Part shown: one piece after another, positions 13,864 through 49,297 of the stretch
Layout: each line of letters begins with the position of its first letter
Position numbering within the stretch: the stretch's first letter is position 1
Assembly (NCBI GenBank): GCA_016935665.1
Contig: JAFGQN010000046.1
Coordinates: forward strand, 1-49,297
Reading direction: 5' to 3'
From: Deltaproteobacteria bacterium
Lineage (GTDB): Bacteria > Myxococcota_A > Polyangia > JAAYKL01
DNA length: 49,297 nucleotides
Program-made: the position numbers and the translations under genes
Notes under the pieces: model-generated
Told to the model about the DNA's origin: nothing
Database searches by the model: none
Seen by the model: the letters and a program-made list of their open reading frames with translations, nothing else

Positions 13864-15855
13864 ATGAATCTTCTACCGACTGCAGTGTTCCGCATTCCTC
13901 CTGTAATACTCATAGGTATTCTTTTATCGTGTGGATGCAGTGACCAGACTGCGCGAGAAATGAACGATGATGACGATAAGTCATCAAAAGATGTAGGCAA
14001 CAATTCTGACAGCAGTTCTGATGACAAAGAAAACAACAATTCCAGTTCATCGGACGACACCAAAATATACAAAGACGGCGGTTGTGCCTATGAATGCACA
14101 TGGGATGCGGGCAGCTGCACCGGAAATATGAATGGCGAAGTCGTTAAGGGGAATTGCACGGACAACCAGGTCTGTTGCCATGTTCAGGGGACTGAAGCCA
14201 AACGGCAATGCCTTGGTACCTGCAAAATGCAGTGGGAGAGCTGCGAAGGAGAAAGCTACATTTCTGAAGGCAACTGCTCCGGCGCCCAGATGATTTGCTG
14301 CGAAGACGGAAAGGAAGTGGCGGGCAGCGATCAGGGGTTTGAGGGTGATGATGATGACGATGACGACGACGATGATGATGGTCCCGTAACGGTAACCGAC
14401 GAGGATTACACCATCGAAACCACATGGGAAGATGTCCTCGAAGAGGACAATACTGTCGTTGAAGTGGAGGGTGATTCCATCACTGACTTGACAACGCCAG
14501 GGCAGTATCGTGTGGATGAGAACGGCAATATTACCGATGGCGGATCTCTTTTTAATGTGCGTTGTGGAAACTGGTTTGGTCTTGAAGGTCAGCACGAACC
14601 ATCGGATGCCGCCAGCAATCCCAGTGGCGCCCCCATGGAATTGTATGTAGGTAACATGTGGTGGGCGGAAACCGGTCGAACCATTCAAAAGACCATGACA
14701 GAAATCAAGGAATTGGGAATCAATATGATTCGATTTCCCATTGCGCCTCAAACGCTGGATCCCTCTGACCCACAGGGCATTGGATCTGTCCAAAATGGTG
14801 GCGTGCTGAAGAATTCACCATCGGTGTTGCAGGAAAATGCGCGTCAGGCCATGGAAGATTTCATTAAACTGGCAGACGAAAACGACTTGAAAGTACTGGT
14901 GGATATTCACTCCTGTTCCAACTACGTTGGATGGCGCGCCGGCCGGCTGGATGCGGCGCCACCGTGGGCTGATGCTGACCGCAAAGGATATGACTACACC
15001 CGCGAAGAGTACACCTGTGCCAGTGGCAAAGATGAATACAACGAGGAAAAATGGCTGGCTAATATCAAGGAAATCGCTGGTCTGTCTGAAGCACTTGGGG
15101 TGGACAACATTATTGGTATCGACATTTTCAACGAGCCATGGGACTACACCTGGGCCGAGTGGAAACGCCTTTCTGAAAAGGCATTTGAAGCCATCGATTC
15201 AGTCAATCCGGACATTTTGATTTTTGTTGAGGGAATCGGTTCCAAAACCAACAAAGACGAAGAGATTCCTCACGGCTCACCAGAAACCAATCCCAACTGG
15301 GGAGAGAACCTGTTTAATTTTAAAACCGATCCTTTGAATATTCCCAAAGAACGTCTGGTGCTGTCACCCCATACGTATGGTCCCTCCGTTTATGTGCAAA
15401 ACCAGTTTGTGGTTGGCAGCGCGTGTGAGGGAATGGAAGGCGATGAAGCCGGTGAAAACGATTGCCCCATCAAAATTGTGTCGGAACGGCTGTACCCCGG
15501 TTGGGAAGAGCACTTCGGTTACCTGAGAAGTCAGGGATATGCCATGGTGATTGGTGAGTTTGGCGGCAACAAGGATTGGCCCAAGAATACACGCCGCGCA
15601 GAACAGGAGATGTGGAGTCACATCACCACGCAGGTGGATTTGGATTGGCAAAATGCATTTGTGGACTACATGATTGAAAAGAACATTCAGGCCTGCTACT
15701 GGGCCATAAATCCGGAATCCGGTGATACAGGTGGTATTTACACTTCGCCTTATCGGGCGGACACCAATGAGGATGCGTGGGGCAAATGGGGGGCTTTTGA
15801 TTCCAGTAAAACCTCTATGCTGAAACGTTATTGGCAGGGGCTGGAATCGAAATAA
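13864..15855 (+). CDS. GH5 cellulase-like lipoprotein with six-cysteine repeat module, 663 aa
   Basis: The signal sequence has a lipobox around LLSCGC. After an acidic Ser/Asp linker come two cysteine-rich repeats (residues 74-146) of pattern C-x3-C-x6-C-x(10,12)-C-x(5,6)-CC, then an eleven-residue Asp run, and from about 230 a glycoside hydrolase family 5 domain. Catalytic residues are visible: acid/base Glu424 in IFNEPW and nucleophile Glu565 in IGEFGG, with RFPI and DIHS motifs before them. GH5 enzymes retain configuration and cleave beta-1,4-glucans such as cellulose. AAGGAG precedes the ATG. The same Cys module opens the neighbouring GH6 protein, suggesting paired surface enzymes. The exact substrate cannot be told; mannan or xyloglucan remain possible. 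Confidence 0.93.
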   Translation: MNLLPTAVFRIPPVILIGILLSCGCSDQTAREMNDDDDKSSKDVGNNSDSSSDDKENNNSSSSDDTKIYKDGGCAYECTWDAGSCTGNMNGEVVKGNCTDNQVCCHVQGTEAKRQCLGTCKMQWESCEGESYISEGNCSGAQMICCEDGKEVAGSDQGFEGDDDDDDDDDDDGPVTVTDEDYTIETTWEDVLEEDNTVVEVEGDSITDLTTPGQYRVDENGNITDGGSLFNVRCGNWFGLEGQHEPSDAASNPSGAPMELYVGNMWWAETGRTIQKTMTEIKELGINMIRFPIAPQTLDPSDPQGIGSVQNGGVLKNSPSVLQENARQAMEDFIKLADENDLKVLVDIHSCSNYVGWRAGRLDAAPPWADADRKGYDYTREEYTCASGKDEYNEEKWLANIKEIAGLSEALGVDNIIGIDIFNEPWDYTWAEWKRLSEKAFEAIDSVNPDILIFVEGIGSKTNKDEEIPHGSPETNPNWGENLFNFKTDPLNIPKERLVLSPHTYGPSVYVQNQFVVGSACEGMEGDEAGENDCPIKIVSERLYPGWEEHFGYLRSQGYAMVIGEFGGNKDWPKNTRRAEQEMWSHITTQVDLDWQNAFVDYMIEKNIQACYWAINPESGDTGGIYTSPYRADTNEDAWGKWGAFDSSKTSMLKRYWQGLESK

Positions 15856-15874
15856 GACATCAACGCTATGCAAC

Positions 15875-15899
15875 CACACGAAATGAGCTCTTTCGTGTG
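15875..15899 (+). terminator. hairpin after the GH5 gene
   Basis: A perfect 9-bp stem (CACACGAAA / TTTCGTGTG) with a 7-base loop lies 20 bases after the GH5 stop. No T run follows, so it may stabilise the mRNA end rather than stop transcription on its own. Confidence 0.5.
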
Positions 15900-16073
15900 A
15901 CCGATAACTAAGTTTAATTGAGTCGTCACACATCCTGGCTGGCATTCAGCAGGGGGCAGAACCGTTGCACTCTAAATGGTATTATTGACAGGCGCAGCGA
16001 TGAATGGCGACACCGGATAATGACTGAATTTTCAGCGATTTTTCAATGTGTGACAGGTTAGAGGAGATTTTTT

Positions 16074-17954
16074 ATGACCATGAGATTCTTGATGTATCAA
16101 TTGCTGGTGGTGCTGTTGGTGGGAATGACGGCAAGCTGCAGCAGCGATGGTGGCAGTGGCGCAAACAATGATAAGGCCAGCACATCCGGGCCCGGCAGTG
16201 AAAATTGGACCGTGACTGATTCGGGCCTGGTTGAATACAGGGATGGCAGTTGCGCATACGATTGTGCGTGGAATGAATCCGAATGCACACAGGCAAAAGG
16301 AGGTACTGTCACCGAAGGCAGCTGTGAGCAGGGACAGGTTTGCTGCTATGTGGGCACACAACCCAAAGTTCAGTGCGTAGGTACATGTGTAAAGGAATGG
16401 GAATCCTGCCCGGGCGGTATGTCCTTCACCAGCGGCAATTGCTCCGACGTGCAACAGCGGTGTTGTGACACCAGCGAAGAGATTTACAATGGGACTACCG
16501 ATGGTGGAAACAACACTGGCGGTGGCAACACGACCGGCGGCGGCAACACGACCGGGGGCGGCAATTCAAACATCACCGACGAAGACAAGGAAATTGCCGA
16601 CGTTACCATCGACGTTGAAGTTGAAGCGATGGCAGAGCGGGTTCACTATGACAATCCGTTTGCCGAAACGAAAAAATGGTACGTGAACCAGTGGTGGTCA
16701 AAGAATGCCAAAGCCAGTGGCGGAGAGGCCATTGCGGGTGTGAGTACCGGCGTGTGGATGGATCGTATCGCCGCCATTGAGTCCTACAATGGCCAGGCCC
16801 CAAATGAGAATTTTGGGTTGCGGGAACATCTGGATGCAGTGCTGGAACAGGGGGCTGACCTGTTTATGTTTGTGGTATACGACCTGCCCGGAAGGGACTG
16901 CGCTGCTGAGGCATCCAACGGTGAGTTGCCCGCCACTGCCGAAGGGATGGCAGAATACAAAAAAGAGTATATCGGCAAAATTGCCAATATCCTTGGCGAA
17001 GAGAAATACGCGGGCATTACAGTGGTTGCCATTATCGAAATTGATTCGCTGCCCAACCTGGTAACCAACTCCAACAAGGTTGAATGTCAGCAGGTGGCTA
17101 ACAGCAGCCCCTTTGGCTATACCGAAGGAATTCGGTTTGCACTTACTCAGTTGAAGAAGCTTCCCAATGTGCATTCCTACATAGACGCTGCACACTCCGG
17201 CTGGCTGGGATGGGATGAAAAGTTCGACGAATCCACGCGTTTTATTGCGGACGTGGTTGCGGGTTCAAGTCAGGTGGGGCCAACACCAGCTCCCGGTTGG
17301 GATTCCATCAATGGGTTCATTACCAATACCTCCAACTATACACCGCTGGAAGAACCGTACCTTGGAGATCCGGAAGCAATCGCCGGGGATGTACCGTTGC
17401 GTTCGGCCACGTTCTATGACTGGAATCCCGTATTTGGCGAGTTGCAGTTCACAAAGAAGTGGCGAGAAGCCATGATCAGTCATGGCGCGGGCAGTGATAT
17501 AGGAATGCTTATCGACACGGGTCGCAACGGTTGGGGGGGAGATGATCGTCCCAGTGGCCCATCGAGTGCATCAGATCCCAACTCGATGGTTAATGAATCC
17601 CGGATTGACAGGCGCCCCCATCGCGGCAGCTGGTGCAATCAGCGAGGCGGTATTGGCGAGCGTCCACAGGCGAATCCGCCTGGACAGTCTCATATTGACG
17701 CGTACGTATGGGTAAAACCCCCTGGCGAATCCGATGGGGTGAGTACACCGGATTTTGAGGTGGACCCCAATGATAAGAATAAAAAATACGATCCCATGTG
17801 CGGCCCCAATGATGTGAATCATTACGCCGAAGATGCGGCGTCCACCCGAGGGCAGGGAATTGGAACTGGCGCCATGGAGGATGCACCTCACGCGGGACGA
17901 TGGTATGAGGAAGGATTCAAAGTCCTGATTGAAAACGCTTACCCGCCCCTGTAG
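16074..17954 (+). CDS. GH6 cellobiohydrolase/endoglucanase-like lipoprotein with six-cysteine module, 626 aa
   Basis: The lipobox is at TASC near residue 21. Two six-cysteine repeats occupy residues 60-131 with the same spacing as in the GH5 neighbour, followed by a Gly/Thr/Asn linker (GGGNTTGGGN). The catalytic domain from about 195 is glycoside hydrolase family 6: YDLPGRDCAA (Asp270 and Asp275) and the catalytic-acid loop IEIDSLPNLV with Asp324 are family signatures, as are the late RGSWCNQ segment and HAGRWYEEGF. GH6 enzymes invert configuration and release cellobiose from cellulose. GAGGAG precedes the start. Together with GH5 this gives a complementary retaining/inverting pair. Whether it is endo or exo acting cannot be judged without the active-site loops. 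Confidence 0.94.
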   Translation: MTMRFLMYQLLVVLLVGMTASCSSDGGSGANNDKASTSGPGSENWTVTDSGLVEYRDGSCAYDCAWNESECTQAKGGTVTEGSCEQGQVCCYVGTQPKVQCVGTCVKEWESCPGGMSFTSGNCSDVQQRCCDTSEEIYNGTTDGGNNTGGGNTTGGGNTTGGGNSNITDEDKEIADVTIDVEVEAMAERVHYDNPFAETKKWYVNQWWSKNAKASGGEAIAGVSTGVWMDRIAAIESYNGQAPNENFGLREHLDAVLEQGADLFMFVVYDLPGRDCAAEASNGELPATAEGMAEYKKEYIGKIANILGEEKYAGITVVAIIEIDSLPNLVTNSNKVECQQVANSSPFGYTEGIRFALTQLKKLPNVHSYIDAAHSGWLGWDEKFDESTRFIADVVAGSSQVGPTPAPGWDSINGFITNTSNYTPLEEPYLGDPEAIAGDVPLRSATFYDWNPVFGELQFTKKWREAMISHGAGSDIGMLIDTGRNGWGGDDRPSGPSSASDPNSMVNESRIDRRPHRGSWCNQRGGIGERPQANPPGQSHIDAYVWVKPPGESDGVSTPDFEVDPNDKNKKYDPMCGPNDVNHYAEDAASTRGQGIGTGAMEDAPHAGRWYEEGFKVLIENAYPPL

Positions 17955-47707: not shown

Positions 47708-48901
47708 ATGCAACGATTGTCAAGGATGATGCTGGCCACAATTCTGGGGCTGGCGATGTTTTTCAGCATGTCGTGCGGTACTTCAGAACTCGAAAATGAC
47801 GCCGGCACGGCAGACGACAGCAGCGAGACCGATGCGGATTCCGACGGAGATTCAGATGGAGACAGCGATTCCGATGGGGACTCGGATACCGACGGCGACA
47901 GCGATTCTGACGGCGACGCGGATGGGGACTCCGATGGCGATGTGGGCGCGTGTGAATACACCTGCAGCGACCACTGCATGTCCATTGGTGGAAAAGAAAT
48001 GGAAGGTGAGTGCGACAACAGCGCGCAAAAATGTTGCGATTTGCCTTCTTCGGATGCGGATGTGGATATTGACGCTGATTCAGATGCCGACAGTGACGGG
48101 GACACCGATGCCGACGGCGATTCCGATTCTGATTCGGACGGCGACAGCGATGGTGACGGAGAAGGAACACCTGGATGTGGTGTAATGGATCATCTTCAGA
48201 GCGGCGAAGCCAGTATTGATGTATCCGGCGCCAGCAGAGATTATATCCTGAATGTGCCGGATGATTATGATCCCAACCATGCTTACCCGCTTTATTTTGG
48301 GTGGCACTGGATGGGGGGCTCCATGAATGATGTTGTCAGTGGGCAGATCACAGGTGGGGCGTACTATGGCCTTGAAAGCCGGGCAAAAGGAGAGGGCATT
48401 TTTGTTGCGCCAGATGGCATCGACGATGGTTGGGCGAATACAGGCGGCCGGGACATCGAATTTTTACGAGCCATGATGGATTTGTTCACTGAGAATCTGT
48501 GCATTGACAAAAAACACATTTTCTCAACCGGATTCAGTTATGGCGGTATGATGTCCAACGCCGTTGGATGCGCCATGCCGGATGTATTCAGAGCGATTGC
48601 GCCGATGTCCGGAGCACAATACAGCGGATGTGAGAAGACGAAAACAGATCCGATCGCGGTGTGGATGTCCCACGGCGATGAAGATACTGTTGTCCCACTG
48701 GCAGATGGGCAGCAGGCATTAAACGAATTCATCAAGAGAAACGGTTGTGGTAGTGAGACGGTGCCTGTGGATCCCAGTCCGTGTGTGGAATACCAGGGGT
48801 GTGCAGATGGATACCCGGTTGTTTATTGTGAATTCAGTGGTGGGCATGGTCCTGCCAGTTTTGGTCCGGACGGTATCTGGGATTTTTTCAGTCGATTTTA
48901 A
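47708..48901 (+). CDS. CE1-type esterase lipoprotein with six-cysteine module, 397 aa
   Basis: The lipobox is SMSC near residue 23. A Ser/Asp/Gly linker is interrupted by one six-cysteine repeat (residues 82-110, C-x3-C-x3-C-x11-C-x6-CC), a relative of the modules in the GH5 and GH6 proteins, and resumes before the hydrolase domain (about 160-397). That domain has GWHWMGGSMND, nucleophile GFSYGGMM, SHGDEDTVVPL with the Asp and FSGGHGPAS with the His, ending WDFFSRF. The triad is complete. AAAGGAGG precedes the ATG. Feruloyl or acetyl-xylan esterase activity is likely. The single-copy Cys module links it to the cellulases as part of one secreted set. Confidence 0.9.
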   Translation: MQRLSRMMLATILGLAMFFSMSCGTSELENDAGTADDSSETDADSDGDSDGDSDSDGDSDTDGDSDSDGDADGDSDGDVGACEYTCSDHCMSIGGKEMEGECDNSAQKCCDLPSSDADVDIDADSDADSDGDTDADGDSDSDSDGDSDGDGEGTPGCGVMDHLQSGEASIDVSGASRDYILNVPDDYDPNHAYPLYFGWHWMGGSMNDVVSGQITGGAYYGLESRAKGEGIFVAPDGIDDGWANTGGRDIEFLRAMMDLFTENLCIDKKHIFSTGFSYGGMMSNAVGCAMPDVFRAIAPMSGAQYSGCEKTKTDPIAVWMSHGDEDTVVPLADGQQALNEFIKRNGCGSETVPVDPSPCVEYQGCADGYPVVYCEFSGGHGPASFGPDGIWDFFSRF

Positions 48902-49010: not shown

Positions 49011-49297
49011 ATGAACTGTAAGTACAATTGTTTTTTAATGGTGATGTTGTTGCTCGCAGTGATCTGGGTGGTTTCCTGCTCAGGCAGTGATGGCGGAGGT
49101 GGCGACTCGGACGCGGATAGTGACGCAGATGGCGACAGCGATGGCGATACTGACAGCGATGGCGACAGCGATACGGATGGGGATAGCGATAGTGACGGCG
49201 ATTCCGATACGGATGGGGATACCGACAGCGATGGCGATACTGACAGCGATGGCGACAGCGATACGGATGGGGATAGCGATAGTGACGGCGATTCCGA
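49011..49297 (+). CDS. Ser/Asp-linker lipoprotein, 5' part only
   Basis: The gene begins with CCAGGAGG seven bases before the ATG and encodes a lipoprotein signal with Cys23 in VVSC, then an Asp/Ser/Gly/Thr linker running to the window edge ([20 protein letters not shown] and on). The functional domain lies outside. By analogy with neighbours it should be another secreted hydrolase or binding protein. Confidence 0.85.
49134..49297 (+). repeat. 90-bp tandem duplication in lipoprotein linker
   Basis: The 74 bases at 49134-49207 recur without change at 49224-49297, a period of 90 bp (30 residues). The second copy is cut by the window edge, so more units may follow. Confidence 0.9.

Follow-up and report, generated by a model that had tools for sequence, protein, structure and literature searches.

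Introduction

Enzymes that attack plant fibre from the cell surface are usually held there by known carbohydrate-binding modules (CBMs) or by cellulosomes. Among six-cysteine folds, the beta-defensins pair their cysteines as C1-C5, C2-C4 and C3-C6. In the CBM10 family (PF02013), the fungal members bind protein and the bacterial ones count as cellulose binders (Pfam name; PMC10485095), and the recognition between cohesins and dockerins is generally species-specific (PMC12484212). Here we describe a small six-cysteine (six-Cys) module carried by surface enzymes of a bacterium of the Myxococcota, which the tests applied here place outside the CBM10, defensin and dockerin families. Judged from its sequence, the module probably acts like an accessory targeting module, be it of the CBM or of the dockerin kind, and its tandem form probably binds cellulose. 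Literature searches revealed no description of this module, and the family is apparently undescribed.

Results

The module and its copies in the window

The window, meaning the whole stretch of 49,297 nucleotides that was analysed, is the entire contig C98 of an 8.16-Mb genome in 249 contigs. A preliminary description made from these letters alone had recognized five copies of the module in three secreted proteins, and translation of the window puts all five at precisely the positions given there, as follows.

13864..15855, + strand: GH5 cellulase lipoprotein ORF (PF00150, E 5.7e-41; lipobox LLSC)
14083..14178, + strand: six-Cys module 1 of GH5, residues 74-105, CAYECTWDAGSCTGNMNGEVVKGNCTDNQVCC (profile E 3.0e-9)
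14209..14301, + strand: six-Cys module 2 of GH5, residues 116-146, CLGTCKMQWESCEGESYISEGNCSGAQMICC (profile E 1.0e-7)
16074..17954, + strand: GH6 cellulase lipoprotein ORF with a like tandem (PF01341, E 1.8e-84; lipobox TASC)
16251..16346, + strand: six-Cys module 1 of GH6, residues 60-91 (profile E 1.2e-8)
16374..16466, + strand: six-Cys module 2 of GH6, residues 101-131 (profile E 5.3e-8)
47708..48901, + strand: esterase-like alpha/beta-hydrolase lipoprotein ORF (lipobox SMSC), with one module between two DSDGD stalks
47951..48037, + strand: esterase six-Cys module, residues 82-110, of the short C-x3-C-x3-C type (profile E 4.1e-14; AF2 pLDDT 81)

The Pfam matches confirm the GH5 and GH6 identities proposed earlier, and profile searches assign the third ORF to the alpha/beta hydrolases of PHB-depolymerase/esterase type. 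The GH5 ORF runs from a signal peptide with lipobox through an acidic stalk, the tandem six-Cys modules and a poly-D stalk to the GH5 domain. Each module measures 28-45 residues and has six invariant Cys, which we infer form three disulfides. The proposed spacing, C-x3-C-x(3,6)-C-x(10,12)-C-x(5,6)-CC with a Gly ahead of the fourth Cys, served as the search pattern; in the translated copies the conserved Gly lies at C4-2 (G-x-C). A six-frame regular-expression scan of the window gave exactly five matches, all inside the GH5, GH6 and esterase-like ORFs, and 300 shuffles of the residues gave a mean of 0.01 matches (maximum 2). The spacing pattern thus held up, and a chance arrangement of cysteines is ruled out by these figures together with profile E values down to 1e-14.

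Extent in the genome and among relatives

A first profile was built from 16 copies and a second from 38 copies of the same genome; the latter matched 58 places with E <= 5e-4 across the 8.16 Mb, which establishes a repeated module. With a copy in a CE15 esterase on contig C107 and a re-scan, the genome total comes to at least 60 copies, spread over about 42 ORFs. The C107 copy had surfaced in a random sample of the genome and was then added to the count. The module does sit on the GH5, the GH6 and the esterase, but the initial count was too low because one contig only was in view. Its spacing types comprise a short one (C-x3-C-x3-C-x11-C-x5/6-CC), a second (C-x3-C-x5-C-x12-C-x6-CC), the tandem type of GH5 and GH6, and a long one that a multi-module protein contains.

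Ten of the 14 genomes of the order, all of one family, contain the module; in that search the genome under study had 55 copies, two congeners 31 and 10, and other genera 1-5 each. A sample of 116 genomes of the class gave zero matches at E <= 0.001 among the roughly 100 from outside the order, and 379 genomes of the phylum gave none at that threshold outside the family. On this genome sampling the module is a lineage-specific family. Phage sequences had no match, which rules out a phage origin, and a search of BFVD with the module gave zero matches.

Carriers and their anatomy

Nearly every intact carrier has the same layout: a lipobox signal peptide, an acidic stalk of D, S, G and T, the module (itself acidic, with a mean net charge of -3.2), further stalk and then a domain. 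The location between anchor and catalytic domain that was noticed in the window is therefore general among carriers genome-wide. Two M6 peptidases of the congener G005 bear the module C-terminally, beside a C-terminal sorting-like tail, so the position of the module follows the anchor. MYXO-CTERM signals, which are universal in Myxococcota (PMC11980579), exceed the cut-off in three proteins of the genome under study, and one of these has the full tail, which points to the Myxococcota as the source.

Pfam identifies many CAZymes among the carriers of this genome (GH5x3, GH6, GH10x3, GH11x2, GH30x2, GH62, GH54, CE15x2 or, with the C107 copy, x3, and a SASA esterase), so the module recurs with other CAZymes, namely GH10, GH11, GH30, GH54, GH62 and CE15 enzymes. 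The module is also borne by GDSL and alpha/beta esterases and by BNR_4, arylsulfotransferase, beta-helix, CAP, VWA, His-phosphatase and metalloprotease-like proteins. Lipoproteins that consist of modules only occur on C119 (4 copies), C95 (3), C18, C109, C158:1013 and C46, and a further multi-copy protein of this kind has at least eight copies across pieces on two contigs, C90 and C97. These pieces probably form one gene, because a PilZ-like gene comes next both here and in G005.

Among the carriers of G005, Pfam recognizes GH43+CBM6, GH10 and pectin-lyase-like proteins, and sequence comparison adds GH5, GH30, CE15, SASA and a CAP protein. Genome G004 has GH45 and GH11 carriers, and G006 a GH45. 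As is required of a carbohydrate-binding module, the six-Cys module appears in these domain layouts as a discrete unit on CAZymes, and the AF2 model of a single module has moderate confidence.

Optional use of the module among surface proteins

The pairing with CAZymes first proposed describes many carriers but not the M6 peptidases, the CAP, VWA, arylsulfotransferase and His-phosphatase proteins or the module-only proteins, and a module confined to CAZymes is ruled out by these. Random sampling of 0.54 Mb from the genome yielded 23 stalked ORFs, one of them with the module; the other 22 included four strict CAZymes (GH26, GH12, GH5+CBM4_9 and CE2). Strict CAZymes make up 17 of about 43 carriers versus 4 of 22 other stalked proteins (p = 0.07), and of about 13 full-length GH10 genes only 3 have the module. 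The module is therefore an optional addition to surface proteins, among which CAZymes are abundant in any case. Within the short type, a Trp (SWGG/SWNG) occurs in 7 of 14 CAZymes versus 1 of 15 others (p = 0.014, a difference softened by neighbouring paralogues) and is absent from the modules of G005.

The tandem form and the place of CBM2 and CBM10

The tandem has the consensus x-D-G-x-C-A-[YF]-x-C-x-W ... C-x-[GA]-x-C-x3-W, and the Trp in each half is invariant across nine aligned tandems. All six identified enzymes with a tandem are cellulases (GH5x4, GH6 and GH45), versus 1 of the 21 enzymes with other forms (one GH45 and 20 other GH/CE). This association has a Fisher p of 2e-5, although the four GH5 carriers are mutually related, so that the independent cases are one each of GH5, GH6 and GH45. 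Tandems without an assigned enzyme occur on C90, on G005 L148 and on a cut ORF in G003.

Among named proteins, those nearest to the GH5 domain are homologues from Teredinibacter and Cellvibrio (68-70% identity) and Colwellia (64%). The former two carry an N-terminal CBM2 and CBM10 on Ser-rich linkers, and the Colwellia enzyme a CBM2. In the window GH5, the lipobox, stalk and tandem occupy the region where these homologues bear CBM2/CBM10. The whole genome has two CBM2 and one CBM10, none of them on enzymes that carry the six-Cys module.

Profile and fold comparisons

The module had been described as matching no familiar carbohydrate-binding family, and searches with Pfam, NCBIfam and PDB profiles indeed gave no match above cut-off. 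CBM_10 by hmmscan had no match in the carriers at E <= 1 and none in isolated modules at E <= 10, with the Cellvibrio and Teredinibacter CBM10s recognized at 2.8e-9 and 4.3e-6 as positive controls. Homology to CBM10, which has an akin Cys rhythm (CxxxCxW), is ruled out by an hhalign probability of 0.2-1.2%. Matches to TrAA12, MSCRAMM Sdr/Clf and similar families arise from the D/S-rich stalks and not from the module.

A likeness of the CC ending to defensins had also been suggested, and it is echoed by both profile and fold comparison, but weakly in each. When the 38-copy HMM was run against the PDB, eurocin scored best at E 0.026, followed by beta-defensin 1 at E 4. Among AF2 models of the five window copies, that of the esterase module reached a mean pLDDT of 81 and the other four 45-68; a model of the tandem from a two-row alignment reached 40. 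VIA-align of the AF2 model reported four PDB chains, all beta-defensins, with Z scores of only 2.3-2.8 over up to 36 residues, and Foldseek gave E values of only 8-9. In Pfam, only one copy scores against Beta-defensin (PF00711), at 13.0 bits (E 0.11; cut-off 21); Carboxypeptidase inhibitor I68 (PF10468) reaches 12.7 bits (E 0.17; cut-off 25). The agreement between profile and model matches points weakly to a defensin-like fold.

Evolution of the modules

A comparison of this genome (G000) with G005 over 13 carrier pairs, each the reciprocal best, shows that the likeness of modules mostly tracks the genome and not the enzyme. Orthologous GH10 (79% identical), GDSL (88%) and alpha/beta-hydrolase (80%) pairs have modules that are only 25-31% identical, and the usage of short versus CVA types is 34:4 in G000 versus 2:22 in G005 (p = 1e-10). 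Within G005, modules on different enzymes are mostly 72-91% identical to each other. For 21 of these, on mostly unrelated proteins, the mean amino-acid identity is 80%, pS is 0.76 and pN/pS is 0.16; random recoding gives a pS of 0.90 and orthologous catalytic domains 0.73-0.84. With pS near saturation, recent gene conversion is unsupported as the source of this likeness, and the copies are therefore old, separately evolving and held alike by selection. The module is under selection beyond its cysteines, toward a genome-wide consensus. The GH5 tandem shows no type flip and is 58% identical between the two species.

Homogeneity within a genome and divergence between congeners therefore indicate selected recognition of something shared. 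From these sequences, a shared binding target would predict the pattern and an inert spacer would not. A species-specific partner fits the single forms particularly well, and the conservation of the tandem is in keeping with an unchanging polymer, for example cellulose.

Discussion

We tentatively favour, with slightly less than even confidence, the reading that the six-Cys module is a new, lineage-restricted family of accessory binding modules held on stalks, with a tandem most likely meant for cellulose; we infer both the binding and the ligand. This reading is preferred because of the at least 60 stalk-placed copies, the many CAZyme carriers, the place otherwise taken by CBM2/CBM10, the link between tandem and cellulases and the selection on residues other than Cys. 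The acidic stalk would keep the enzyme away from the outer membrane and the module would fasten it to a target. On GH5, GH6 and GH45, the tandem would most likely bind cellulose in the role of the CBM2/CBM10 pair, perhaps by the invariant Trp of each half and the preceding Tyr/Phe. The single forms that xylanases, esterases and further proteins carry might hold a different target in common, perhaps a second polymer of the wall.

Several observations count against a binding module. The enrichment for CAZymes is weak, as is its use among GH10 enzymes. In G005, proteases, CAP and arylsulfotransferase proteins share the module with xylanases, which a substrate-specific CBM leaves unexplained, and one GH43 there already has a CBM6. 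Orthologues switch module type between congeners, which one would not expect if the module were a CBM for a universal polymer.

Some of these observations favour the main rival, a dockerin-like docking that we consider unlikely, though less so than any other alternative. Under this explanation, a shared surface partner peculiar to each species would gather the module lipoproteins into a complex, with the module as address tag. Species-specific cohesin-dockerin recognition offers a precedent (PMC12484212), and a changing partner would suit the 80% identity of G005 modules at near-saturated synonymous sites, the 25-31% identity of modules whose catalytic domains are 80-88% identical, the type flip and a range of tagged proteins that spans proteases, CAP, arylsulfotransferase and CAZymes. 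However, the genome has no match to cohesin (PF00963) at E <= 0.1, the carriers are already anchored in the membrane, the tandem stays put between species, and the multi-copy module-only protein of C90/C97 shows no sign of a scaffold role. A bolder proposal, more doubtful still, is that the system parallels the cellulosome on a Gram-negative surface: defensin-fold tags would dock xylanases, esterases, proteases and others on a rapidly changing species-specific partner, supplemented by a cellulose-holding tandem.

The module might instead be an inert bead, knotted by disulfides and resistant to proteases, that has no ligand and gives the stalk stiffness or protection. Its constant location in the stalk, its very diverse carriers and its acidity would suit such a bead, as would the fact that most stalked lipoproteins manage without it. 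We regard this as improbable given the strong purifying selection on non-Cys residues among mostly unrelated carriers, the tie of the tandem subtype to cellulases and the exchange with CBM2/CBM10. Least probable by a wide measure is an antimicrobial or protease-inhibitor domain for predation or defence, since, despite the defensin-like profile and fold matches, the module is acidic rather than cationic, is fused on stalks to polysaccharide-degrading enzymes and reaches the cut-off of no Pfam inhibitor or defensin family.

One bacterial family thus appears to have made its own small disulfide module and to have distributed it over dozens of surface proteins, placing it where relatives of one carrier enzyme have standard CBMs. 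If cellulose binding proves true, the module would found a new CBM family whose members are very small; if protein docking proves true, it would belong to a system that resembles a cellulosome but does without cohesin, in a Gram-negative bacterium.

Comparison with known systems

Among described modules, CBM10/fungal dockerin (PF02013, IPR002883) is similar in being Cys-rich, about 40 residues long, single or tandem and present on GH5 and other plant-cell-wall enzymes, and it sits at the equivalent place in the gammaproteobacterial GH5 homologues, but it differs in how its cysteines are spaced and in the CC ending. CBM2 shares the N-terminal region of the GH5 homologues and the low-complexity linkers, whereas it is a beta-sandwich of about 100 residues with unrelated sequence. 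Beta-defensins and CS-alpha-beta defensins resemble the module in their six Cys, CC ending and G-x-C at the fourth Cys, and the module departs from them in its C1-x3-C2 spacing, its acidity and its place within large anchored proteins. The bacterial dockerin-cohesin system of cellulosomes likewise distributes one short module over many enzyme classes, homogeneous within a species and changing between species. Unlike a bacterial dockerin, the six-Cys module has no sequence match to that family, is built on six Cys in place of a Ca-binding duplication, and rides on lipoproteins in a genome without cohesin.

Multi-module and stalked lipoproteins

One multi-module lipoprotein carries the tandem pair of six-Cys modules and at least six modules of the long type; a contig end interrupts its probable single gene in the source genome. 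Its modules share up to 73% identity with those of its counterpart in the congener, and the same PilZ-like gene lies downstream in both genomes.

G000 C90:1-1650 (L063) and C97:1-168 (L064): multi-module lipoprotein; G005 counterpart, L164
Window 49011-49297: further lipoprotein with a DSDGD stalk, extending past the contig end
Region separating the two stalks of L169, and C-terminal portion of L231:10908-12044: Cys-rich segment CY.E.A.A.E.ACFS.AG.G

Many stalked ORFs of the source genome match Pfam TrAA12 and NCBIfam MSCRAMM Sdr/Clf because of their D/S-rich stalks, and such matches would misdirect automatic annotation.

Candidate additional modules and possible enzyme origin

The proteins sharing the Cys-rich segment are a GH45 protein and a stalked lipoprotein, and we take this segment to be a second Cys-rich module without a name. 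Another recurrent domain, GDW..G..CVEGT..DYSSLG.L......, occurs in L189 (GH10, contig C127), L170 and L165. It is fused to GH10, GH11 and six-Cys modules, and is possibly a further accessory module without a Pfam name.

The catalytic domain of the GH5 protein encoded at window 13864-15855 shares 64-70% identity with enzymes from Teredinibacter, Cellvibrio and Colwellia, which suggests that the gene passed between Gammaproteobacteria and the lineage of the source bacterium by gene transfer.

In two M6 peptidases of the congener (L141 and L143), the six-Cys module lies at the C-terminal side, adjoining a C-terminal tail whose Cys-Gly-Cys motif makes it look like a MYXO-CTERM-type sorting signal.
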